Source: Desulfocurvibacter africanus subsp. africanus DSM 2603 (GTDB lineage Bacteria > Desulfobacterota > Desulfovibrionia > Desulfovibrionales > Desulfovibrionaceae). From it: DNA of 38,303 nucleotides. Of this stretch, positions 26,550 to 37,503 are shown piece after piece. Position 1 is the stretch's first letter; each line of letters begins with the position of its first letter. Under the pieces are notes generated by a model. It made no database searches. It worked only from the letters and a program-made list of their open reading frames with translations, and was not told the DNA's origin. The position numbers were made by a program, and so were the translations under genes. The stretch covers positions 1 through 38,303 of the forward strand of contig NZ_AULZ01000032.1 of the NCBI RefSeq assembly GCF_000422545.1, given 5' to 3'.

Positions 26550-27422
26550 CTACAATCCCAATATCTGCTTGAGCTCCCCTATGCGCCGACGGCTCACGGG
26601 CAACTCTATGCGCGTCTTACCCGCGGTGCGCAACATGAAGTTGGAGCCGGGCATGGAGGATATCTCGGTGACCATATCCAGGTTGACCAGGTACTTCCGG
26701 TGCACGCGAAAGAAACGGTACGGCTTGAGCCTGTCCTCCAGGTTCTTGAGCCTGTAGGAGGTCAGGTACTTCTGGCTGGCCGTGTGCACGTAGGAGTAGT
26801 CCTCGTAGGCCTCCACGAACACGATCTGATCAAAGGGCAGCAGCACCATCCTGCCGTCCTGATTGATGGCCAGCTTTTCGATTTCGGGCGGCTTGCCGCG
26901 TTGGGAATAGTCCCAGGCCTGGCGCAAGGCAGACAGGAAGCGGTCCTCGTCTTCCTCGCCCATGGGCACCTGCACCATGGACTCCTCTTCCGACCCGCCG
27001 CCGTAATCCCGCTCCGGGATCAGGGACGGCCTAGGCGCCTGCATGAACCCGGAACGCAACTGGCGCAGGCGGTCCACGGTGCGAGACAGACGCTCGCGGC
27101 CCGCGGGCCAGATAAGATAGTCCAGAGCCTCCAACTCGAAAGCCTTATAGGCTTTCGACTCGTCCGAAGCGATGAACACCAAGGCGGGACGGGACTTGCG
27201 CCCCATGAGCATCTGAGCCAGCTCCAGACCGCTTACCTCGCCAGGCAATTCCAGGCCCAGAAAAATCACGCCATAGGGAATATGCTCCAGAAGTTCCATT
27301 GCCTCGTAAGCGGTAATGGCTTCTCCCAGAATTCGCATAAAATCCAAATGGCTTAAGCTGTCCCGCAAGCCGCTTCTGACCGCAGGATCTCCATGAAGAA
27401 GGAGCGCCCGGAGCTTGTTCAT
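26550..27422 (-). CDS. LytTR transcriptional regulator with degenerate receiver domain
   Basis: This 290-residue protein has a receiver-like domain (1 to about 120) joined to a C-terminal LytTR DNA-binding domain (about 190-290; FDQIVFVEAYEDYSYVHT, FFRVHRKYLVNLDMV, LPVSRRRIGELKQIL). In the receiver, the phosphoacceptor Asp is replaced by Gly56 (VIFLGLELPGEVSG). The conserved Lys before Pro is Trp105 (DYLIWPAGRERL). Asp12 of the acidic pocket remains. It is therefore unlikely to be controlled by normal phosphorylation. It lies between acs and the divergent hdr-mvh operon and could regulate either (inference). Confidence 0.9.
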   Translation of the reverse strand: MNKLRALLLHGDPAVRSGLRDSLSHLDFMRILGEAITAYEAMELLEHIPYGVIFLGLELPGEVSGLELAQMLMGRKSRPALVFIASDESKAYKAFELEALDYLIWPAGRERLSRTVDRLRQLRSGFMQAPRPSLIPERDYGGGSEEESMVQVPMGEEDEDRFLSALRQAWDYSQRGKPPEIEKLAINQDGRMVLLPFDQIVFVEAYEDYSYVHTASQKYLTSYRLKNLEDRLKPYRFFRVHRKYLVNLDMVTEISSMPGSNFMLRTAGKTRIELPVSRRRIGELKQILGL

Positions 27423-27706: not shown

Positions 27707-29026
27707 ATGACGTTAGCGCCTAAACCGCTGCCGGACGCAATCAAGGAGCGGCTGGCCAAGTTCGACTTGAACGCCTGCTTTACGTGCGGGACGTGCTCCA
27801 GCGGTTGCCCCATCACCGGTACGCCGGGAATGGAAGGCTGGGACACACGCAAGGCCTTGCGCATGATTGCCTACGGCATGATTGACGAGGTCGTCGATTC
27901 TGATTGGCCATGGGTCTGTACCGGCTGCGGCCGTTGCGCCTACGCCTGTCCACAGGGCATCGATATCGTGCCCATCTTCGGCTACATGAAGCACCTGCGC
28001 GAGCGCTCCAAAGTGCCCGGCGTGCTGAACAAGGGCGTGGATCGCGTCATTGAAACCGGCAACAACATGGGCATCGCCAAGGACGACTACCTGATGTCCA
28101 TGGCCGATGTGGGCAACGAGTTGGCCGAGGAGGAATGCCCCGGCTTCTACGTGCCCGTGGACAAGGAAGGCGCGAGCGTCCTGTTCTTCCCCAACTCCAA
28201 GGAAGTCTACGGCGACTTCGAGGACCAGAAGTGGTGGTGGAAGATCTTCTACGCCGCCAAGGAAAACTGGACCATTCCCTCGGAAAACTGGGAAGCCGTC
28301 GACTGGGGTCTGTTCACCGGCAACTACGAGGCCACCAAGACCCTGGCACAGCGCAAGATGGACCTGAACCGCAAGCTCAAGGTCGGCACAATGATCATGC
28401 CCGACTGCGGCGGCGGATCATACGGCTGCCGTAGCGGCATGAAGTCCTGCGCCCTTGAGGACGCGAGCAACACCGTCAACTACGTCTATCTCTATGACTA
28501 CCTGAAGAAACTCATCGAGCAAGGCCGCGTCAAGCTCGACAAGAGCCGCTGGGAAGGCAAGACCTTCGCTTTCCATGACTCCTGCAAGCATGGCCGCGAG
28601 CTGGAAAAGCATTTTGGGGATGCCTACTACGAAGAAGCCCGCTGGATCATCGACCAGTGCGTGGGCAAGCGGGTCGAGTTCTACCCCAACCGCGGCAACA
28701 ACTACTGCTGCGGCGCCGGCGGCGGCAACTGGCCCGGCCCCTACGAGAAGCATTCCGCCTACCATGGCCGCTTCAAGGTCCAGCAGATCAAGGATTCCGG
28801 CGCGGATATCGTCGTGGTCGGCTGTTCCAACTGCCGCGACCAGATCTCGCGCAGACTGCCCAAGTACTACCCCGAGGATTGCAAGTACGAGGTCAAGTAC
28901 ATCTGGCAGCTCGTGGCCGAGTCCCTGGTCATGGAGCCCTGGAGCGAAGAAGAAGTCGAGAAGGCCCAGGCCGAGGCTGCCGCCCAGTGGGAGCGCCTTG
29001 GTGTGGATCTGGACGCTGGTTACTAG
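27707..29026 (+). CDS. HdrC-HdrB fusion (HdrD/DsrK-like) heterodisulfide reductase subunit
   Basis: This 439-residue iron-sulfur protein joins an HdrC-like ferredoxin part to an HdrB-like catalytic part. Two [4Fe-4S] motifs lie at C24/C27/C30/C34 and C71/C74/C77/C81. The C-terminal CCG domain has C293, CC334-335 and C373/C376 (CCGAGGG; GCSNCRDQ). The first CCG repeat found in full HdrB is not intact; a different set C234/C241/C248 (CGGGSYGCRSGMKSC) stands there. One complete CCG motif is as in DsrK, HmcF and TmcB. It probably reduces a disulfide or trisulfide carrier; DsrC is a candidate partner (inference). It is the first gene of the operon, 73 bp before hdrA. Confidence 0.88.
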   Translation: MTLAPKPLPDAIKERLAKFDLNACFTCGTCSSGCPITGTPGMEGWDTRKALRMIAYGMIDEVVDSDWPWVCTGCGRCAYACPQGIDIVPIFGYMKHLRERSKVPGVLNKGVDRVIETGNNMGIAKDDYLMSMADVGNELAEEECPGFYVPVDKEGASVLFFPNSKEVYGDFEDQKWWWKIFYAAKENWTIPSENWEAVDWGLFTGNYEATKTLAQRKMDLNRKLKVGTMIMPDCGGGSYGCRSGMKSCALEDASNTVNYVYLYDYLKKLIEQGRVKLDKSRWEGKTFAFHDSCKHGRELEKHFGDAYYEEARWIIDQCVGKRVEFYPNRGNNYCCGAGGGNWPGPYEKHSAYHGRFKVQQIKDSGADIVVVGCSNCRDQISRRLPKYYPEDCKYEVKYIWQLVAESLVMEPWSEEEVEKAQAEAAAQWERLGVDLDAGY

Positions 29027-29099
29027 GCGAGAGCCTGAAGATACGATGGAGCTTCACCTGTCCTACGTTTAACTAAACCTGCAAGGGAGGTTTAGGTCT

Positions 29100-32000
29100 A
29101 TGACCAAAGTAGGTTCCGTGATGGTCGTTGGCGGCGGTATCGCCGGCATCCAGACCGCCCTGGACCTCGCCGATTCGGGCTACTATGTCTACATGGTAGA
29201 AAAAGGCCCGAGCATCGGCGGAGTCATGGCGCAACTGGATAAGACCTTCCCGACCAATGACTGCGCGATGTGAATAGTCTCGCCAAAATTGGTCGAGTGC
29301 GGTCGGCACTTGAATATCGAGCTTTTGACCATGTCCGAGGTTGTTGGCGTATCCGGCGATGCCGGGAACTTCACTGTGAAGGTCCGGCAGAAGCCCCGCT
29401 ACGTCGAGATGGACAAATGTATCGCCTGCGGCCTGTGCGCGGAAAAATGTCCCAAGAAAGTCTCCAACGAGTACAACGCGGGTCTCGACACCCGCAAGGC
29501 GGCTTACATCGAGTACGGCCAAGCCGTGCCCCTCAAGTACGTCATTGACGCCGAAAACTGCATCTACCTCAAGTCCGGAAAGTGTCGCGCCTGTGAAAAG
29601 TTCTGCCCCACAGGAGCGATCAACTTCGAGGACAAGGAAAAGACCATCGACCTGAACGTCGGCGCGGTCATCGCCGCTCCCGGCTTCAAGCCCTACGATC
29701 CCACCAGCGTGGACTTCTTCGGCCATGACCGCAAGAACGTCCCCGACTGTGTGACCAGCCTCGAATACGAGCGGCTTCTGTCCGCCAGCGGCCCGTGCAT
29801 GGGCCACCTCGTGCGCCCCTCGGACCACAAGGAACCCCAGAAGATCGCCTGGCTGCAGTGCGTCGGCTCGCGCAACACGAGCAAGTGCGACAATGGCTTC
29901 TGTTCGAGCGTGTGCTGTATGTACGCCATCAAGCAGGCCATGGTCACCGCGGACCATACCGCCGGAGAGCTGGACCAGACCATCTACTACATGGACATCC
30001 GCTCCCACGGTAAGGAGTTCGAGAAGTACTACGAGGACGCCAAGAAAAAGGGCATCAAGTTCGTGCGCGCCCGGCCACACACGGTCATGCCCGGCGAAGG
30101 CGGCAAGGGCGTGCGCATCCGCTACGCCAGCGAGGACGGCAGGGAGATCTACGAAGACTACGACCTGTTCGTGCTGTCCATCGGCCTTGAGGCCCCCACG
30201 AGCGCCGAAGCGCTGTCCAAGACCCTGGGCATCAAGACCGACAAGTACAACTTCGCCCTGACCGGCAGCTTCGCGCCCGTGTCGGCCAGCAGGCCCGGCA
30301 TCTTCGTGTCCGGCGCCTTCCAGGGCCCCAAGGACATCCCGCAGTCCGTGACCGAGGCCTCCAGCGCCGCCGCCATGGCCGCGGCAACCCTGGTCGAAGC
30401 CAAGGGCACGCTGACCAAGGCCAAGACCTACCCGCCCGAGATGAGCGTGGCCGGCCAGGCTCCGCGCATCGGCGTGTTCGTCTGCTCCTGCGGCATCAAC
30501 ATCGCAGGCACCGTGGACGTGAAGAAGGTCATGGAATACGCCAAGAGCTTGCCGAACGTGGCGTTCGTCGAGAACAACCTGTTCACCTGCTCGGCCGACA
30601 CCCAGGACCTCATCAGCGCCAAGATCAAGGAACATAAGCTGAACCGCGTGGTGGTGGCCGCCTGCACACCCAGGACTCACGAGCCCCTGTTCCAGGACAC
30701 CATGGCCAGCACGGGTCTCAACAAGTACCTGTTCGAGATGGCTAACATCCGCAACCAGAACAGCTGGGTGCACCAGAACGAGCCCGAAAAGGCCACTCAG
30801 AAGGCCATGGACCAGGTGCGCATGGCCGTGGCCAAGGCCCAGTACCTCGAGCCGCTGGACAAGATCAGCGTCAACGTCATCCAGAAGGCCCTGGTCATCG
30901 GCGGCGGCATCTCCGGCATGACCTCGGCGCTCGGCTTGGCCAACCAGGGCTATCCCGTGACCCTGATTGAGAAGGGCGACCAGCTCGGCGGCAACGCCTG
31001 GGCCCTGTCGCACACCTGGAAGGGCGAGGAGATCAAGCCCTTCGTCGAGGGCCTCATCAAGCAGGTCGAGGGCCACAAGAACATCAAGGTCTACAAGAAG
31101 GCTCAGCTCAAGAGCGCCACGGGCTCCGTGGGCAGCTTCACGAGCAAGATCGACGCCGGCGGCCAGGAGCTGGCCCTCAACTACGGCGTAGCCGTGGTGG
31201 CCACGGGCGCCAAAGAATACAAGCCCAAGGAGTACCTCTACGGCCAGGACAAGCGCGTTCTTACGCACCTGGACTTCGAGGCCCTGCTCAAGAGCAACCC
31301 CGGCGCGATGAAGAACGCGAAGAACGTGGCCTTCATCCAGTGTGTCGGCTCCCGCGACGACGAGCGGCCCTACTGCTCGCGCGTGTGCTGCTCGCACTCG
31401 GTCGAGGCGGCCCTGAGCATCAAGAAGATCAATCCGAACGCTGGCGTGTTCGTGTTCAACCGCGACATCCGCACCTACGGCCACCGCGAGGACATCTACC
31501 GCGAGTCCCGCGAGAAGGGCGTCATGTACGTGCGCTACGAGCCAGAGGCCAAGCCCAAGGTCTACACCGAAGGCAGCGCCCTGTTCATCGAGGGCTATGA
31601 CCCGATCCTGCAGGACAGCGTCAAGATCCCGGTGGACTACGTGGTGCTCGCTTCTGCCATCGTGCCGCACAAGGACGACTCGCTGTCCAAGCTCTACAAG
31701 TGCTCGGTCGGCGCCGACGGCTTCCTCACCGAGGCCCATCCCAAGCTGAAGCCTGTTGACCTCTCGGTCGACGGCCTGTTCGTGGCCGGCCTGTGCCACT
31801 ACCCGAAGCCTGTGGACGAGGCCATCGGCCAAGCCCAGGCAGCGGTCTCCAGGGCGAGCACCATTCTCTCCCAGGCGACCATGACGCTCGACTCCATCAA
31901 GAGCTATCGCACCGACAACTGCGACGGCTGCGCGCTCTGCGTCGACGTATGCCCCTATCTGGCCATCAGTCTCGAGGACTACCAGAAGGACGGGTACACC

Positions 32001-32144
32001 TACAGGCGCATCAAGACCGAGCAGGCCCTATGCAAGGGCTGCGGCCTGTGCGAGGCCACCTGCCCCAAGCAGGGCGTGTACGTGCACGGCTTCACCATGG
32101 ACCAGATCAAGGCCCAGGTGGATGCCATGCTGGAAAGCGTATAG
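29100..32144 (+). CDS. hdrA: HdrA flavoprotein, double-length, selenocysteine at residue 58
   Basis: Reading UGA 29271-29273 as Sec gives 1014 residues from ATG 29100. The N-terminal half has FAD site [19 protein letters not shown] (about 10-28), then [13 protein letters not shown], where C55 and U58 stand for the family's CxxC, then inserted ferredoxin motifs C107/C110/C113/C117 and C154/C162/C165/C169. The second half is classical Hdr[13 protein letters not shown] at about 460, a second FAD site [19 protein letters not shown] near 600, and two terminal [4Fe-4S] motifs (C941-C951, C978-C988). The two halves share QCVGSR...C..VCC segments, so they look duplicated. HdrA bifurcates electrons from H2 to ferredoxin and the disulfide. 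GGGAGG precedes the ATG. Without Sec the frame breaks after 57 codons. Confidence 0.93.
29271..29310 (+). promoter_or_regulatory. UGA codon and candidate SECIS of hdrA
   Basis: After the UGA, AGTGC (29296-29300) and GCACT (29306-29310) form a 5-bp stem with loop GGTCG, 27 bases from UGA to loop. The GGU in the loop recalls the E. coli fdhF SECIS apical loop. A lower hairpin (CTCGCCAA 29279-29286 with TTGG 29289-29292 and CGAG 29294-29297) is an alternative or competing fold. Confidence 0.6.
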
Positions 32145-32174
32145 CCAACCCTTCAAGGAAGGAGTTTATCGGAT

Positions 32175-32606
32175 ATGGCTGACACTTACGAACCGGTCAT
32201 CATCGGCTTCCTGTGCAACTGGTGCGCATATGCCGGCGGCGACCTCGCGGGCGTCTCGCGCCTGCAGTACCCGCCCAACATGCGCGCCATCCGGGTCATG
32301 TGCTCCGGCATGGTGCATCCGAACCTGGTGGTGCATGCGCTCCAAAAAGGCGCCGACGGCGTCATGGTGCTTGGCTGACACCTGGGTGAATGTCATTACC
32401 TGGATGGTAATCACAAGGCACTGGCTAGGGCTGAAGGCGCGAAACTCGTTCTCGCCGACCTGGGCATTGATCCCGAGCGTTTCATGATCGAATGGTGCTC
32501 CTCCGCCGAGGCGCCCCGGTTCGCTGAACTGGTGACCTCGTTCACGGACAAGATCAGGAAGCTCGGCCCCAATCCTCTGAAGGCCAAGCAAGCGGTAACC
32601 GCGTAA
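32175..32606 (+). CDS. mvhD: MvhD iron-sulfur protein, selenocysteine at residue 68
   Basis: The frame from ATG 32175 meets UGA at 32376-32378; reading it as Sec gives 143 residues ending at TAA 32604-32606. MvhD carries a [2Fe-2S] centre that passes electrons from the Mvh hydrogenase to HdrA. Family marks are FLCNWCAYAGGDLAG (C14, C17), VMCSGMVHP (C43) and VMVLGUHLGECHYLDGN, where U68 replaces the conserved Cys of GCHxGDCHY, with C73 after it. The second half (EWCSSAEAPRFAEL) is typical, which proves the UGA does not end the gene. It lies 30 bp after hdrA; a hairpin follows it. Confidence 0.93.
32376..32411 (+). promoter_or_regulatory. UGA codon and candidate SECIS of mvhD
   Basis: A 6-bp stem ATTACC (32395-32400) / GGTAAT (32406-32411) with loop TGGAT follows the UGA, the loop starting after 22 bases. 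Two more pairs may form below a C-C mismatch. The loop and distance are the same as in mvhA. Confidence 0.65.
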
Positions 32607-32612
32607 CCGAAC

Positions 32613-32644
32613 CCGGAGGGTGGGCCTCGGCTTCCGCCCTCCGG
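32613..32644 (+). other. Intercistronic hairpin between mvhD and mvhG
   Basis: An 8-bp stem CCGGAGGG/CCCTCCGG (32613-32620 with 32637-32644) can be extended by about four pairs. No T-run follows, so it is not a clear terminator. It may protect or process the mRNA between the electron-transfer genes and the hydrogenase genes. Confidence 0.5.
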
Positions 32645-32666
32645 CTCCGCGAATACGGAGGAATAC

Positions 32667-33605
32667 ATGGTCAAAGTAGCAGAGGAATGGTTGAATTCAT
32701 GCTCGGGGTGCGAGATCGCCATCCTCAATATCGGGGATGCCCTGGTCGATCTGCTGCCTTCGCTTGAGTTCGTGCACATTCCCGTTCTTATCGACAAAAA
32801 GTATTACGGCCAGACCGGCGAGGGGAAGCATCTCGAAATCCCCAAGGCCGTTGTCGGCATCGTTTCCGGCGGCGTGAAGAACAGCGAGCACCTCGAGGTG
32901 CTCCATAAGATGCGCGAGTCCTGCGACATCCTTATCGCGCTGGGCACCTGCGCCACGGACGGCGGCCTGCCGGCCCTGGCCAACATGTACACCAACGACG
33001 AAATCCGCGAGTTCTCCTACCACGACTCTCCCACGACCGTGGACAAGGGCGTGCGGCCCAACCCGGACAAGTTCCATATCCCGCACATGCTCGAGCACTG
33101 CACGGCGCTGGACGAGCACGTCAAGGTGGACATCAAGATCCCCGGCTGCCCGCCGCATCCCGAGTGGATCGCCGGCGCGGTGTTGGCGCTGCTGGACGGC
33201 AAGACCGAGTTCAAGCTGCCCGAGCGCAGCGTGTGCGACGTCTGCCCCACCAAGCGCGAGCGCAAGAAATCCGATACCGGCGTCCTGAAGCGCATGCTGG
33301 AGACCCCGGAGTACGATCCGGAGAAGCCCGTGAGCGATATGCGCTGTTTGCTGGAGCAGGGCTTCATGTGCCTTGGTCCGGTGACCAGGGCCGGCTGCGG
33401 CGGCATGCAGGCGCGCACTCCGCGCTGCATCTCTGCCCGCGTGCCCTGTCGCGGCTGCTACGGCCCCGTGCGCGAGTCGGCCCTGCCGCTCATCGATTAC
33501 GTGAGCGCCCTGGCCTCCGTCGGCTATGACCCGGCCAAGATGCCCGATCGTCGCGGCTTCCTGGCAAGGTTCTCCGGCGGCCACGGCGTGCTCAAGAAGA
33601 TCTAG
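32667..33605 (+). CDS. mvhG: F420-non-reducing-type [NiFe] hydrogenase small subunit MvhG
   Basis: This 312-residue small subunit binds the Fe-S clusters that lead electrons away from the active site. The proximal-cluster motif is EEWLNSCSGCEIA. Later segments are GTCATDGGLPALAN and PGCPPHPEWIAG. A Cys-rich C-terminus includes CDVCPTKRERK, CLLEQGFMCLGPVTRAGCGG and CRGCYGP. No Tat signal is present, so the enzyme is cytoplasmic, as expected for Hdr-linked hydrogenases. GGAGG lies five bases before the ATG. It contains no in-frame UGA. Confidence 0.93.
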   Translation: MVKVAEEWLNSCSGCEIAILNIGDALVDLLPSLEFVHIPVLIDKKYYGQTGEGKHLEIPKAVVGIVSGGVKNSEHLEVLHKMRESCDILIALGTCATDGGLPALANMYTNDEIREFSYHDSPTTVDKGVRPNPDKFHIPHMLEHCTALDEHVKVDIKIPGCPPHPEWIAGAVLALLDGKTEFKLPERSVCDVCPTKRERKKSDTGVLKRMLETPEYDPEKPVSDMRCLLEQGFMCLGPVTRAGCGGMQARTPRCISARVPCRGCYGPVRESALPLIDYVSALASVGYDPAKMPDRRGFLARFSGGHGVLKKI

Positions 33606-33627
33606 GCTTCGGTAGGAGGAAGCACAC

Positions 33628-35094
33628 ATGGCAGCTAGCCCCAATGTCGCTAAGACTCTCAATATCGCGCCCGTGACGCGTATCGAGGGACACGCCGGCA
33701 TCGAGATCATGCTCGATGACGCAGGCAACGTGGCCGATGCTCGGCTCAACGTCATGTCCCTGAGAGGGTTCGAGAAATTCGTGGTCGGGCGTCCCATCGA
33801 GGAAGTGCCCCGTATCGTCAACCGCATCTGCGGCATCTGCCCCTGGAACCACCACCTGGCCTCCATGAAGGCCGTGGACGGTTGCCTTGGGCTGACCCCG
33901 CCGCCAACCGGTCGCAAGCTCCGGGAATTCTGCCAGATGCTGGCCTACATCCCGGACAAGATCCTGCACTTCTACTTCCTGGCCGCCCCGGACTTCGTCC
34001 TGGGTCCTGACGCCGACGTGGCAGTGCGCAACGTGGTCGGTATCGTGGGCGCCGCCCCCGAGCTGGCCAAGCAAGTCGTGCACATGCGCTACAAGACCCA
34101 GATGGCGCTTGAAAAGTTTGCCGGCAAGGTCATCCATCCGATGGCCGCTGTGGCCGGCGGCTTCTCCAAGCCCATGCTGGAGGAGGAGCGCAAGGAACTG
34201 CTCGAGGTGATTAAGGAGGCCAAGGAATTCGGCCTGTTCACCATCAAGTTCGCGCGCGAGAACGTCTTCCCCAAGTACCTGGAAGCGGTGAAGACCGTGG
34301 GCGTGTTCGAATCCGGCTACATCGGCACCGTGGTTCCCGAGACCGGCGCCCTGGAGCTGTATGACGGCGAACTGCGCCTCATGGACAGGGACGGCAGCTA
34401 CGACCAGTTCAAGTACTCGGAATACGGCAATTACATTGCCGAGCACACCGAGGACTGGTCCTATCTCAAGTTCCCGTACATCAAGAAGCACGGCGGCATT
34501 AAGCTGGACGAGACCGACGCCAAGGGCGTCTATCGCTCCAACTGCCTGGCGCGCATCAACGTCTGCGACCAGATGCGCACCCCGCTGGCTCAGAAGGAGC
34601 TGGAGATATTCCGCAAGGAGTTCGGCCGTCCCGCGCACCTTACCCTGCTCTACCATTGGGCGCGGCTCATCGAGCTCGTGCAGTGCTGCGAGCGGGCCGA
34701 GGAGCTGCTGAACGATCCCGAGATCACCGGCCGCGACATCCGGGCCAAGAACATCGTGCCCAAGGCCGGCGAAGGCGTGGGCTGCGTCGAGGCCCCGCGC
34801 GGCACGCTCATCCACCACTACAAGAGCGATGAGAACGGCATGTGCACCTTCGCCAACCTCATCGTCGGCACCACGCACAACAACGCGGGCATGAACCTGT
34901 CCGTGAAGCAGGCAGCCAAGGCGCTCATCAAGAACGGCAAGTACGACCAGGGCATCCTGAATACGGTCGAACTCGCTGTCCGCGCCTACGACCCGTGAAT
35001 GAGCTGCGCTACCCACCGCCTGGATGGCGGCGTCGCTGTGCAGCTCAAGATCATCGACTCCGAAGGCAAGGTCATCGAGACCATGCAGAAGTAG
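33628..35094 (+). CDS. mvhA: [NiFeSe] hydrogenase large subunit MvhA, selenocysteine at residue 457
   Basis: The N-terminal Ni-binding motif is RICGICPWNHH (C68, C71), after RIEGHAGI. The frame reaches UGA 34996-34998 within RAYDPUMSCATH, where U457 and C460 complete the four Ni ligands. Read as Sec, it continues to TAG 35092-35094, giving 488 residues. The family is processed after the His of DPCxxCxxH, here H463, so a 25-residue tail (from RLDGGVAVQ) would be removed. Without Sec the protein would lack half of its active site. In Methanococcales the same Sec is on a separate small subunit, VhuU; here the chain is undivided. It lies 22 bp after mvhG and is the last operon gene. Confidence 0.94.
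34996..35030 (+). promoter_or_regulatory. UGA codon and candidate SECIS of mvhA
   Basis: A 5-bp stem CCGCC (35016-35020) / GGCGG (35026-35030) has loop TGGAT, starting 22 bases after the UGA, identical in loop and spacing to mvhD. It overlaps the codons around His463, the expected cleavage site. Confidence 0.65.
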
Positions 35095-35115: not shown

Positions 35116-35151
35116 AAAGGCCGCTCCCGCGAGGGGGCGGCCTTTCTTTTT
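35116..35151 (+). terminator. Rho-independent terminator of the hdr-mvh operon
   Basis: A 13-bp stem (35116-35128 with 35133-35145, one wobble) with loop GCGA is followed by CTTTTT. It lies 21 bp after the mvhA stop codon, counted from the extended frame. Its position fits the readthrough end of mvhA. Confidence 0.93.
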
Positions 35152-35235: not shown

Positions 35236-37503
35236 CTATGAACTCGATTCGTCCAGCTTGAGCAGGTCTCCGGCCTCGGCGCTGCTGACGAGCAGCACGG
35301 CGCAGCGCATCTCGGCCAGGAACTCGTCGATGGAGTGGGCGGCTCGCTCGAAGTCGTCCTCCTCGGGCAGGCGCAGGCCGACCAGCAGGAGGCTCGCGCC
35401 CGCGGTGGCCTGGCGTATCTGCTCCAGAAACGGCCGTCCCTCTTCCAGCACAAAGACCAGGGGCTCGGCTTGCAGATGCGCCGCGCGCAGCAGCCTGGAC
35501 ATATGCCGCCGCGCGCCTGGAATGCCGGCCTGGCCGCCCACGGGCCGGATGAGTCGCGTCTCCGCCTGCGCCCATTCGGGCGTGCGGCGCAGCAGATGGG
35601 AGGTCATGAGCTTGAGCTGCCCATTGTGCAGCCCGCCTGTCCACAGGATATCGATGCGGCGGCGCTGCCCGAAGCCGACTTGCAGGGGGACGTGCAGGAA
35701 GAGCACGGATTTCCGGAAGGCCAGCAGCGTGTGCGCCAGGCGGAGCTGTCCGGGGCGCTTTTCCGGGTGGTGACTCCAGCCCATGAGCGCGGCGTTGGGC
35801 TCCAGACCCGGCAGTCCGTAAGCCTGCATGACCGAGAGCACCCCCTGATCGAAGTCGGGCGCGATGATGGATTCGGTGAAGGCCACGGCATCGCGCTCGC
35901 CCAGAAAGCCGGCCAGATGTCGGCGTGAGGCCGCGCGCAAGCCTCGACCAGCCTTGTTTCCGAGCGAGTCGGCCAGCACGTGCACGAAGGTGGCCAGGCC
36001 GGACTTGCCGCAAAGCCAGGAGCCCAGGTCGAGCAGGTCGTCCCGGCACACGCCCGAAGGCCCGCTGAGAGCACATCCTTCACGAGCCGGATCTCCGGCA
36101 TTGCCTGAGGACAGCTTGGTGAACACGGCGATGAAAGGCCGCCACGTGCGCGGTTGAGGCGCGTAGGCGCGCAACCGCAGCAAGGCGGCCCGCGCCAGGG
36201 AGAGCCAGATGCCCCCACGAATGTCGCCGAAGTCCTGGGCCAGGGAACGCCGCTTGAGCAGGAAATAGATGCCGAAACTAACCAGGATGGCCAGAACCGT
36301 GGCCGGCGGGTTGATGAGGAACATGGCCGCGTAGCAGGCCAAGGCTCCGGCCAGGCTCACGGACCAGTGCACGGCGATGCGCGGCCGAAAGCCGGGGCTG
36401 CTCACCAGCCGCTCCAGACCGGCCGTGAGGTTGAGCATACCAAAGGTGTTCAGAAAAAACATGGTGATGATCGGTGCCACCACGTTGACCCCGCCCAGCC
36501 AGGCCACGGAAGCCGCGAAAGCCGTGGTCATGAGCACGGCGGCGCGCGGCTCGCCGGCGCTTCCCAGGCGATTCGCCAGCCAGACGGGCACGATGTTGTC
36601 CTGGGCCAAGGCCATGAGCGTGCGCGGAGCGGTGAGCATGCTGCCCAGACCCGAGGACAGGGTGGCGGTCCAGATGCCCGCGACCACCAGCCAGGGCACG
36701 GCTGCCAGATTAACCATGACCAGACTGTCGGCGCGCAATATGGCCGGATCGGCCAGCAGGGACAGGCACACGGCCACGGCAAGGTAGACGGCCGCGCTCA
36801 CGGCAATGGCGGTCAGGATGCCGCGCGGCAGGCTGCGGCCGGGGTTACGCAGGTCGCCGGACATGCTCGGGCCTGCAATCATGCCCGTGACGGCCGGGAA
36901 GAATATGGCGAAGGCCTGCCACAGGCTAACCCGCACGCCTTCGGACGCGGCAAGCTCCGGCCTTATCCATTCGCTCGTGGCCGCACCCAGGAAAAAGGAC
37001 AGCAGCCCGGCAGCCAGCACGGCCATGATGACGTACAGGGCCTTGATGGCAACGCCGGCACCCATCCAAGCCAGCAGGCCGAAAAGCAACACGGTGGCGC
37101 TGGCCACCAAGCGGGCGTCGAGGCCCGGAAAAAGGCTGGCCAGGGATTCGGCGAAGCCGATGGTGTAGAAGGCCGTGCCCAGGGCCTGGGACAAGTACAG
37201 GGGCACGCCGATGGCCCCGCCGATTTGCAGACCCAGCGTGCGCGAGATCATATAGTAGGCCCCGCCCGCGCCCACATGCATGGTCGTGGCCACGGCGGAC
37301 AGGGACAGGGCCGTGACCAGGGAGATTGCGTTGGCCACGACGATGATCAGCAGCGCATGGGCAAGCCCCACATGGCCCACGACCCAGCCGATGCGCAGGA
37401 AGAGCACGACTCCGAAGATGGTCAGGATGGTCGGTGTGAAAACCCCGGCGAAGGTGCCGAACTTGCGGGGCTGAGCTTTGCTGGCGGGATCTAGCTTGGG
37501 CAT
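35236..37503 (-). CDS. Cation-chloride cotransporter (SLC12) homologue
   Basis: This 755-residue protein has about 12 membrane segments (15 to about 420) of the APC superfamily. The SLC12-specific N-terminus is FGTFAGVFTPTILTIFGVVL, then VGAGGAYYMISRTLG, and later PSMSGDLRNPGRSLPRGIL. A long cytoplasmic C-terminal domain (about 430-755) contains GLEPNAALMGW, the conserved segment of eukaryotic Na-K-Cl and K-Cl cotransporters. The transported ions are not known; some bacterial homologues take up amino acids. It converges with the hdr-mvh operon. Confidence 0.88.
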   Translation of the reverse strand: MPKLDPASKAQPRKFGTFAGVFTPTILTIFGVVLFLRIGWVVGHVGLAHALLIIVVANAISLVTALSLSAVATTMHVGAGGAYYMISRTLGLQIGGAIGVPLYLSQALGTAFYTIGFAESLASLFPGLDARLVASATVLLFGLLAWMGAGVAIKALYVIMAVLAAGLLSFFLGAATSEWIRPELAASEGVRVSLWQAFAIFFPAVTGMIAGPSMSGDLRNPGRSLPRGILTAIAVSAAVYLAVAVCLSLLADPAILRADSLVMVNLAAVPWLVVAGIWTATLSSGLGSMLTAPRTLMALAQDNIVPVWLANRLGSAGEPRAAVLMTTAFAASVAWLGGVNVVAPIITMFFLNTFGMLNLTAGLERLVSSPGFRPRIAVHWSVSLAGALACYAAMFLINPPATVLAILVSFGIYFLLKRRSLAQDFGDIRGGIWLSLARAALLRLRAYAPQPRTWRPFIAVFTKLSSGNAGDPAREGCALSGPSGVCRDDLLDLGSWLCGKSGLATFVHVLADSLGNKAGRGLRAASRRHLAGFLGERDAVAFTESIIAPDFDQGVLSVMQAYGLPGLEPNAALMGWSHHPEKRPGQLRLAHTLLAFRKSVLFLHVPLQVGFGQRRRIDILWTGGLHNGQLKLMTSHLLRRTPEWAQAETRLIRPVGGQAGIPGARRHMSRLLRAAHLQAEPLVFVLEEGRPFLEQIRQATAGASLLLVGLRLPEEDDFERAAHSIDEFLAEMRCAVLLVSSAEAGDLLKLDESSS

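Follow-up and report, generated by a model that had tools for sequence, protein, structure and literature searches.

Desulfocurvibacter africanus subsp. africanus DSM 2603 carries, within a stretch of 38,303 nucleotides (positions 1 to 38,303 of the forward strand of contig NZ_AULZ01000032.1, assembly GCF_000422545.1; the whole stretch is referred to as the window), five consecutive genes resembling those of HdrABC-MvhADG-type complexes, three of which, hdrA, mvhD and mvhA, contain an in-frame TGA codon. The locus raises the question of whether these codons are read as selenocysteine (Sec), and by which selenocysteine insertion sequence (SECIS) elements. As judged by sequence comparison, the three TGA-encoded residues are very probably selenocysteine. 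A triple-Sec Hdr-Mvh operon is not new, the kind having been known since 2006 in sulfate-reducing bacteria and methanogens; what is new here is a small point, concerning two positions of the SECIS element in hdrA.

An operon with three in-frame TGA codons

The five genes are co-stranded and separated by intergenic gaps of 22-73 nt (Table 1). HdrA, MvhD and MvhA are open frames when TGA is read as Sec, with exactly one TGA apiece. A preliminary description, made from the sequence alone, had stated that coding continues in frame past each UGA, and this holds over frames of the lengths given in Table 1, with matches to the expected families. The names HdrA, MvhD and MvhA, also given there, agree with family searches, which returned HdrA2/HdrA models with flavin and ferredoxin domains, FlpD, Oxidored_q6, NiFeSe_Hases, VhuA and VhuU. 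Both nickel motifs are found in MvhA, the N-terminal CxxC (RICGICPWNHH) and the C-terminal DP[CU]xxCxxH (DPUMSCATH); its Pfam NiFeSe_Hases match is above the cut-off of the model, and the NCBIfam VhuA and VhuU matches are below theirs.

Solved structures were searched by using phmmer, and the Hdr-Mvh chains of 5odc, 8rvu and 9sw2 were aligned. Sec58 of HdrA aligns with position 197 of 5odc_A (PTNDCSIC), Sec68 of MvhD with position 67 of 5odc_D (GGCHLGDCHY), and Sec457 of MvhA with the first Cys of YDPCLSCATH in 5odc_F. Motifs of this last type are nickel-binding; with Sec457 inside the motif, the hydrogenase would be of the [NiFeSe] type.

Table 1. Coordinates of genes, Sec codons, hairpins and terminator-like site in the window
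Feature	Position	Strand	Description
hdrCB	27707..29026	+	fused HdrC-like 4Fe-4S dicluster and CCG domain; 0 TGA
hdrA	29100..32144	+	1014 aa; two HdrA-type flavin modules in one chain; putative Sec at codon 58
mvhD (FlpD family)	32175..32606	+	143 aa; putative Sec at codon 68
mvhG, hydrogenase small subunit (Oxidored_q6)	32667..33605	+	0 TGA
mvhA, [NiFe] hydrogenase large subunit	33628..35094	+	488 aa; putative Sec at codon 457, C-terminal DPUxxCxxH motif
TGA, Sec58 of HdrA	29271..29273	+	context NDCAM-U
TGA, Sec68 of MvhD	32376..32378	+	context VLG-U-HLGECHY
TGA, Sec457 of MvhA	34996..34998	+	context YDP-U-MSCATH
SECIS-type hairpin, hdrA	29293..29313	+	8 pairs; loop GGTCG at 29301-29305, 27 nt after TGA; -11.1 kcal/mol
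SECIS-type hairpin, mvhD	32391..32415	+	loop TGGAT at 32401-32405, 22 nt after TGA; -7.1 kcal/mol
SECIS-type hairpin, mvhA	35016..35030	+	CCGCC-TGGAT-GGCGG; loop 22 nt after TGA; placed by the register of the relatives
Intrinsic-terminator-like hairpin and T tract	35116..35145	+	13 pairs; 3' of the operon

TGA at the same codons in related genomes

MvhA was matched at 1e-60 in 127 of the 395 genomes that sampled the phylum. Among these matches, the top 34 (the window and 33 others) contain one TGA each, and in all 33 others (L126-L158) it lies at the Sec457 codon. The loci read comprised 57 stretches around MvhA matches, not limited to the best ones, three stretches from the genome of the window and 60 other loci; they were chosen by similarity to MvhA or HdrA, and form a sample rather than a census. 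In each locus, HdrA and MvhD were identified as the closest co-stranded match upstream, up to 9.5 kb away for HdrA and 5 kb for MvhD, so that some of them may be paralogues. Matches ending short of a site, such as the MvhA matches of L020, L048, L066, L070 and L175, were left out of the counts.

All three sites could be read in 42 of the 61 loci whose MvhA match reaches the site, the window included. Sec is predicted in HdrA, MvhD and MvhA together in 28 of these 42, again with the window; the others are five all-Cys loci, eight mixed ones, and one with another codon in HdrA. In mixed loci, Sec is more often retained by MvhA: listed in the order HdrCB, HdrA, MvhD, MvhA, with U for Sec and C for Cys, the states are UUCU (twice), CCCU (twice) and CUCU (once), with one further locus where HdrA alone has Cys, while in two mixed loci a Cys MvhA stands alongside a Sec HdrA. 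The correspondence between UGA and family Cys positions, reported in the preliminary description, is confirmed by the 5odc alignments, and many relatives carry TGA at the same codons.

One locus (L182, G028:C1:1334154-1351308) has two neighbouring hdrA-mvhD-mvhG-mvhA clusters, whose HdrA proteins are sister sequences (support 100); the Sec site is TGA in one and TGT in the other, a recent Sec/Cys pair within one genome.

Hairpins downstream of the TGA codons

The bacterial SECIS model has been described as a loop of 3-9 nt, with G in the first two positions, placed 16-37 nt after UGA, with an energy of -7.5 or lower (PMC13188914). The hairpin of hdrA agrees with it (GGTCG, 27 nt, -11.1 kcal/mol), and is present in the 45- and 80-nt folds and absent from the 60-nt fold. 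The mvhD hairpin appears in the 60- and 80-nt folds, and another loop is taken by the 45-nt fold from TGA; energies were -7.1 for the hairpin alone, -11.0 for 45 nt after TGA and -15.5 for 60 nt. In mvhA, the TGGAT loop at 22 nt is seen in the 60-nt (-29.2) and 80-nt folds. No Rfam match at gathering threshold was found in the window, a search which is not a test of these SECIS elements.

TGA and Cys copies were compared by scanning for hairpins whose loop carries G in its first two positions and lies 14-34 nt beyond the codon. The comparison was limited to aligned codons TGA, TGC and TGT, and to distinct, complete 57-mers without N, counted from the codon. Hairpins were stronger in TGA copies for HdrA (means -9.7 vs -4.5 kcal/mol, n=61 and 47, p 3e-12), MvhD (-6.6 vs -1.9, n=55 and 48, p 3e-11) and MvhA (-12.0 vs -1.9, n=45 and 15, p 1e-8), p values which are optimistic because the sequences are related. 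The MvhD difference shrinks when G is not required (means -6.8 vs -4.7, p 0.002). GC content is similar in TGA and Cys copies for HdrA and MvhD, and 0.60 vs 0.48 for MvhA. A hairpin of -5 kcal/mol or lower was found in 58/61 TGA and 23/47 Cys copies of HdrA, 34/55 and 8/48 of MvhD, and 45/45 and 3/15 of MvhA. Loop starts cluster at 22 nt for MvhA (40/45), at 22-23 nt for MvhD (50/55) and at 22 or 27 nt for HdrA (55/61). When the window's own sequence was subjected to 400 synonymous recodings, the observed energy was reached by 5 of them for HdrA and by 12 for MvhD.

Two probable positions of the SECIS element in hdrA

The two loop positions of hdrA are tied to the amino acid at residue 67, which is Val in 34 of the 61 Sec HdrA sequences, Cys in 23 and another residue in four. 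All 34 Val67 sequences use the codon GTC, which among Cys58 homologues makes up 1 of 11 Val codons; all 34 pair at 6 or more of 7 positions around the loop AGGT at 22 nt, and none does so at 27 nt. The 23 Cys67 sequences, to which the window belongs, all pair at 6 or more of 7 positions around the loop GGTCG at 27 nt, and all have the codons GAG, TGC, GGT, CGG and CAC. Their Leu71 codon is TTG or TTA, with matched changes GTC-TTG (11 sequences) and GTT-TTA (8), and GTG, found in four of them, breaks the residue-71 pair.

The same 23 sequences also reach 6 or more of 7 pairs in the 22-nt register, with a weak stem there (-1.2 vs -11.1 in the window), so that the two positions are not cleanly separate. 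For Cys67 HdrA, the 27-nt register is favoured by the energies together with the frozen silent sites; 3' of the Sec codon, silent sites are frozen where that codon is TGA, not where it encodes Cys.

A tree of HdrA was built from 63 of 103 rows, hand-picked from a first tree from which rows shorter than 150 residues and identical rows had been excluded; the 26 residues from NDCxxC on were masked, except in one row (L166) which has no such motif and was left unmasked. In the masked tree, the two SECIS kinds do not form two clades, and at least three changes are needed among Sec rows. Grouping the 24 rows of the 27-nt kind apart from 27 of the other kind was rejected by the approximately unbiased (AU) test, with a p of 3e-8 that is optimistic because the groups were defined after the first tree.

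The putative SECIS positions go with Val or Cys at residue 67 and not with the HdrA tree; their scatter would be explained by repeated switching and by local gene conversion alike. The evidence is considered to tip slightly in favour of a bacterial hdrA SECIS with two overlapping alternative positions, AGGU at 22 nt (Val67, GTC) or GGUCG at 27 nt (Cys67, TGC), between which lineages would have switched several times through re-paired silent sites and a Val/Cys67 swap. No earlier report of two positions was found in the literature searched, as judged from titles and the beginnings of abstracts. SECIS phylogenies have been stated to be consistent with selenoprotein phylogenies, as data not shown, in PMC1794560, and the pattern described here differs from that statement. 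The switching model, if true, would show how a recoding signal changes its place inside a coding sequence while linked to a residue close to Sec, the two positions being a natural experiment on the evolution of such signals under protein-coding constraint.

Selenocysteine machinery

The genome of the window (4.40 Mb in 40 contigs, 100% complete) was searched for the Sec machinery, a check proposed in the preliminary description, and all components are present: tRNA-Sec, with anticodon TCA, at C15:91515 (86.1 bits), on a contig separate from the window; SelB at C11:14026 (390 bits); SelA at C11:10927 (621 bits); and SelD at C2:245108 (333 bits), with one in-frame TGA. Two matches to formate dehydrogenase alpha (FdhA) are above the cut-off, with one TGA apiece, and the hydrogenase maturation protease gives three matches. 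Together with the TGA codons of relatives, the machinery makes three selenoproteins in one operon, as originally proposed, the best reading.

An aminopeptidase frame was read alongside selB (stretch L017). Fragments copying one end of the tRNA-Sec gene lie at C15:81658-81737, C15:463-556 and C35:7660-7753 (L002, L004, L005), two of them near contig ends; over about 60 bases they are identical or nearly so to the intact gene, and are probably attachment-site duplications left by integrative elements inserting into it. Further HdrA-like and MvhD-like genes of the same genome lie at C14:55256-57639, C6:120847-128039 and C1:35565-39101; in all three loci the MvhD site is TGC, and they are possible selenium-free backups.

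The putative HdrCB subunit

Codon 234 of HdrCB is TGC in the window (28406-28408) and TGA in 17 of the 23 HdrCB matches of other loci, one of these 17 cases being in the same genome; matches near 30% identity may be other paralogues. TGA contexts in relatives are, for example, PE-U-GHAYYAT and TE-U-GH. From its place in the operon, and not from sequence comparison, the TGA-bearing HdrCB is equated with the selenoprotein GlpC reported in 2006 (PMC1794560). The preliminary description had suggested that the electron path from H2 to flavin appears to be selenium-tuned; any such tuning would be a matter of chemistry, and HdrCB, a further subunit of the path, has Cys here and Sec in many relatives. 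A second HdrCB/GlpC-like frame of the same genome (C6, near 130528; L178:16028) has TGA at the equivalent of residue 234 (KYWLNTE-U-GHELFAV), and a Sec form of this family may be made from that locus.

The best NCBIfam matches of HdrCB are HmcF/TmcB/DsrK-like. The window protein carries MIMPDCGGGSYGCR, and its nearest matches, in 24 other loci and 65-72% identical, all have PDCGGGSYGC, with no internal stop; it appears to be part of a group of its own, in which TGA is absent. Flanks of up to 1.5 kb around these 24 loci showed HdrA in two cases, MvhD in four and neither in 18. Three genomes of the same family with triple-Sec operons (G213, G277, G391) gave no HdrCB match at 1e-70, nor one of at least 80 bits beside hdrA. 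Among the 61 loci, the state C-U-U-U is found in the window only. From the Cys-group HdrCB and the four-gene operons of relatives, the window operon looks, in this modest sample, like a four-gene triple-Sec operon joined with a Cys HdrCB of another group.

A conserved partner of the window-type HdrCB was sought in seven further genomes with a crude ORF caller, which recovered HdrCB in five of the seven and called antisense frames in two stretches (L226, L229). These two have a run of neighbours in common, and in L226 hdrA lies near two genes like sulfhydrogenase/AsrA-AsrB electron-transfer subunits. Clustering gave no HdrCB neighbour in common for the remaining five genomes.

Proposed function and alternative explanations

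With high confidence, the five genes are assigned to an HdrABC-MvhADG-type complex, soluble and H2-dependent, that would bifurcate electrons by means of flavin, with three UGA codons read as Sec. Each codon would be read by SelB and Sec-tRNA, guided by the SECIS hairpin just downstream. H2 would be split at the Ni-Fe-Se centre of MvhA, and electrons would pass through MvhG and the iron-sulfur cluster of MvhD to the flavin of HdrA, where one branch would lead via the HdrA dicluster domains to a low-potential carrier (ferredoxin) and the other to a disulfide-type acceptor at the HdrCB CCG domain. By analogy with known complexes, we infer complex formation, the direction of electron flow and bifurcation. 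As the genome has one DsrC, the DsrC trisulfide may be guessed at as one candidate acceptor.

Under the standard code all three frames end at TGA, which could then be true stops or assembly errors in broken or truncated genes. This is very improbable. Each of the three sites falls where its family has Cys, and TGA turns up there in many other genomes; beyond the HdrA codon, silent sites are frozen in copies with TGA but not in those with Cys; and the genome encodes the Sec machinery. A different doubt accepts Sec and concerns its use: the complex might work mainly in reverse, by confurcation of electrons from reduced ferredoxin and thiols to H2, with selenium serving H2 production or oxygen tolerance rather than H2 uptake. 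Hdr-Mvh complexes are reversible in principle, and two formate dehydrogenases with in-frame TGA are also encoded in the genome; the sequence fixes neither direction of electron flow, and this alternative is regarded as unlikely, though to be kept in mind. Slightly less probable is that HdrCB is an independent HdrD/DsrK-like protein, first in the operon by chance and not a subunit. Such a protein would fit the three related triple-Sec genomes lacking an HdrCB match, and the 18 of 24 loci where window-type HdrCB has neither HdrA nor MvhD nearby, but its gene opens the operon, co-stranded with hdrA and 73 nt ahead of it, and a GlpC/HdrCB homologue holds the same place in other operons, also in those described in PMC1794560.

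Several observations weigh against the proposed bifurcating selenoprotein complex. None of HdrA, MvhD, MvhG and MvhA reaches the curated cut-off of an NCBIfam Hdr or Vhu model, and HdrCB scores below that of every Hdr model it matches. HdrCB contains one Pfam CCG stretch. Standard HdrB has two CCG domains, and the window protein thus differs from the HdrB of CoM-CoB heterodisulfide reductase; the single stretch and the scores below cut-off imply that the acceptor may not be a heterodisulfide. In mvhA, the best hairpin of the scan has a loop GCCT at 19 nt, off the conserved register, and the observed energy was reached by 291 of the 400 recodings, i.e. it is not beyond synonymous recoding; a GC-rich coding sequence would often give such a hairpin. 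Of the hairpins claimed after each UGA in the preliminary description, those of HdrA and MvhD stand out against synonymous recoding; in MvhA support for a SECIS comes from the relatives only, which also support the one in MvhD.

Flanking features

Terminator-like sites in the region number 6, against a chance expectation of 6.4; none of the others comes near the stem length of the one 3' of the operon. No promoter was found by a scan, and ARAGORN found no tRNA within the window. A LytTR-type response regulator, a candidate regulator, is divergently encoded directly upstream of the operon (26550-27422, - strand). Convergent with the operon, a gene at 35236-37503 (- strand) encodes a protein with amino-acid permease and SLC12 matches; its match to a K-Cl cotransporter model is below the cut-off.

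Comparison with known systems

The H2-to-flavin electron route with selenium in three partners recurs across many genomes of the phylum, and, as all-Cys and mixed versions exist for comparison, it can be asked what selenium buys at each step.

The Hdr-Mvh complex of 5odc and its kin, presumably from Methanothermococcus, has HdrA, MvhD and MvhA chains all matched by the window proteins. Its deposited sequences have Cys, not Sec, at all three aligned positions, and its HdrA is a single module of 654 residues, unlike the two-module protein of 1014 aa of the window. Residues 8-380 of the latter match 5odc HdrA 147-512, residues 454-607 match 3-156, and residues 873-1011 match the C-terminal ferredoxin part, which indicates a fusion of two HdrA-type modules with Sec in the first. 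Sec-decoding methanogens have separate HdrB and HdrC, a single HdrA module and, in some species, VhuU as a separate peptide. The operon of Sec-decoding methanogens has Sec in the same three partners, in the same order (PMC1794560; PMC11227280), as the preliminary description had noted for Methanococcales; its SECIS elements are of archaeal type and lie in the 3' untranslated region (PMC11227280), whereas those proposed for the window lie within the coding sequence. The same three selenoprotein families are reported for archaea in a study of Asgard (PMC11227280).

Among bacteria, Sec HdrA and MvhD are described in Desulfococcus multivorans (PMC5109826), such selenoproteins are listed for a marine deltaproteobacterium (PMC8318568), and the operon is named as a typical selenoprotein operon in a 2026 review (PMC13188914). 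In Desulfobacterium autotrophicum HRM2, a Sec-containing cytoplasmic MvhA2DG is clustered with a Sec HdrA1, and bifurcation has been proposed (PMC2702500); this Sec hydrogenase-HdrA cluster resembles that of the window and, unlike it, lies with HysAB, Sec being listed for the HdrA and MvhD proteins.

The closest likeness is with the hdrA-frhD-frhG-frhA operons of Zhang et al. 2006 (PMC1794560), in which HdrA, FrhD and FrhA are selenoproteins; they are described in archaea and, with glpC, in Deltaproteobacteria. The full Sec set in one compact operon, singled out in the preliminary description, is real and had already been published there, for Syntrophobacter fumaroxidans and Desulfotalea psychrophila, as had the joining of HdrA to a second HdrA. 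The bacterial operon shares with the window the order of the adjacent genes hdrA, mvhD, mvhG and mvhA, Sec in HdrA, FrhD (=MvhD) and FrhA (=MvhA), an FrhG without Sec, and the hdrA-hdrA fusion. Where the five-gene bacterial form has a Sec GlpC, taken here as the HdrCB homologue, the window, with TGC at codon 234, has a Cys HdrCB of a different group.

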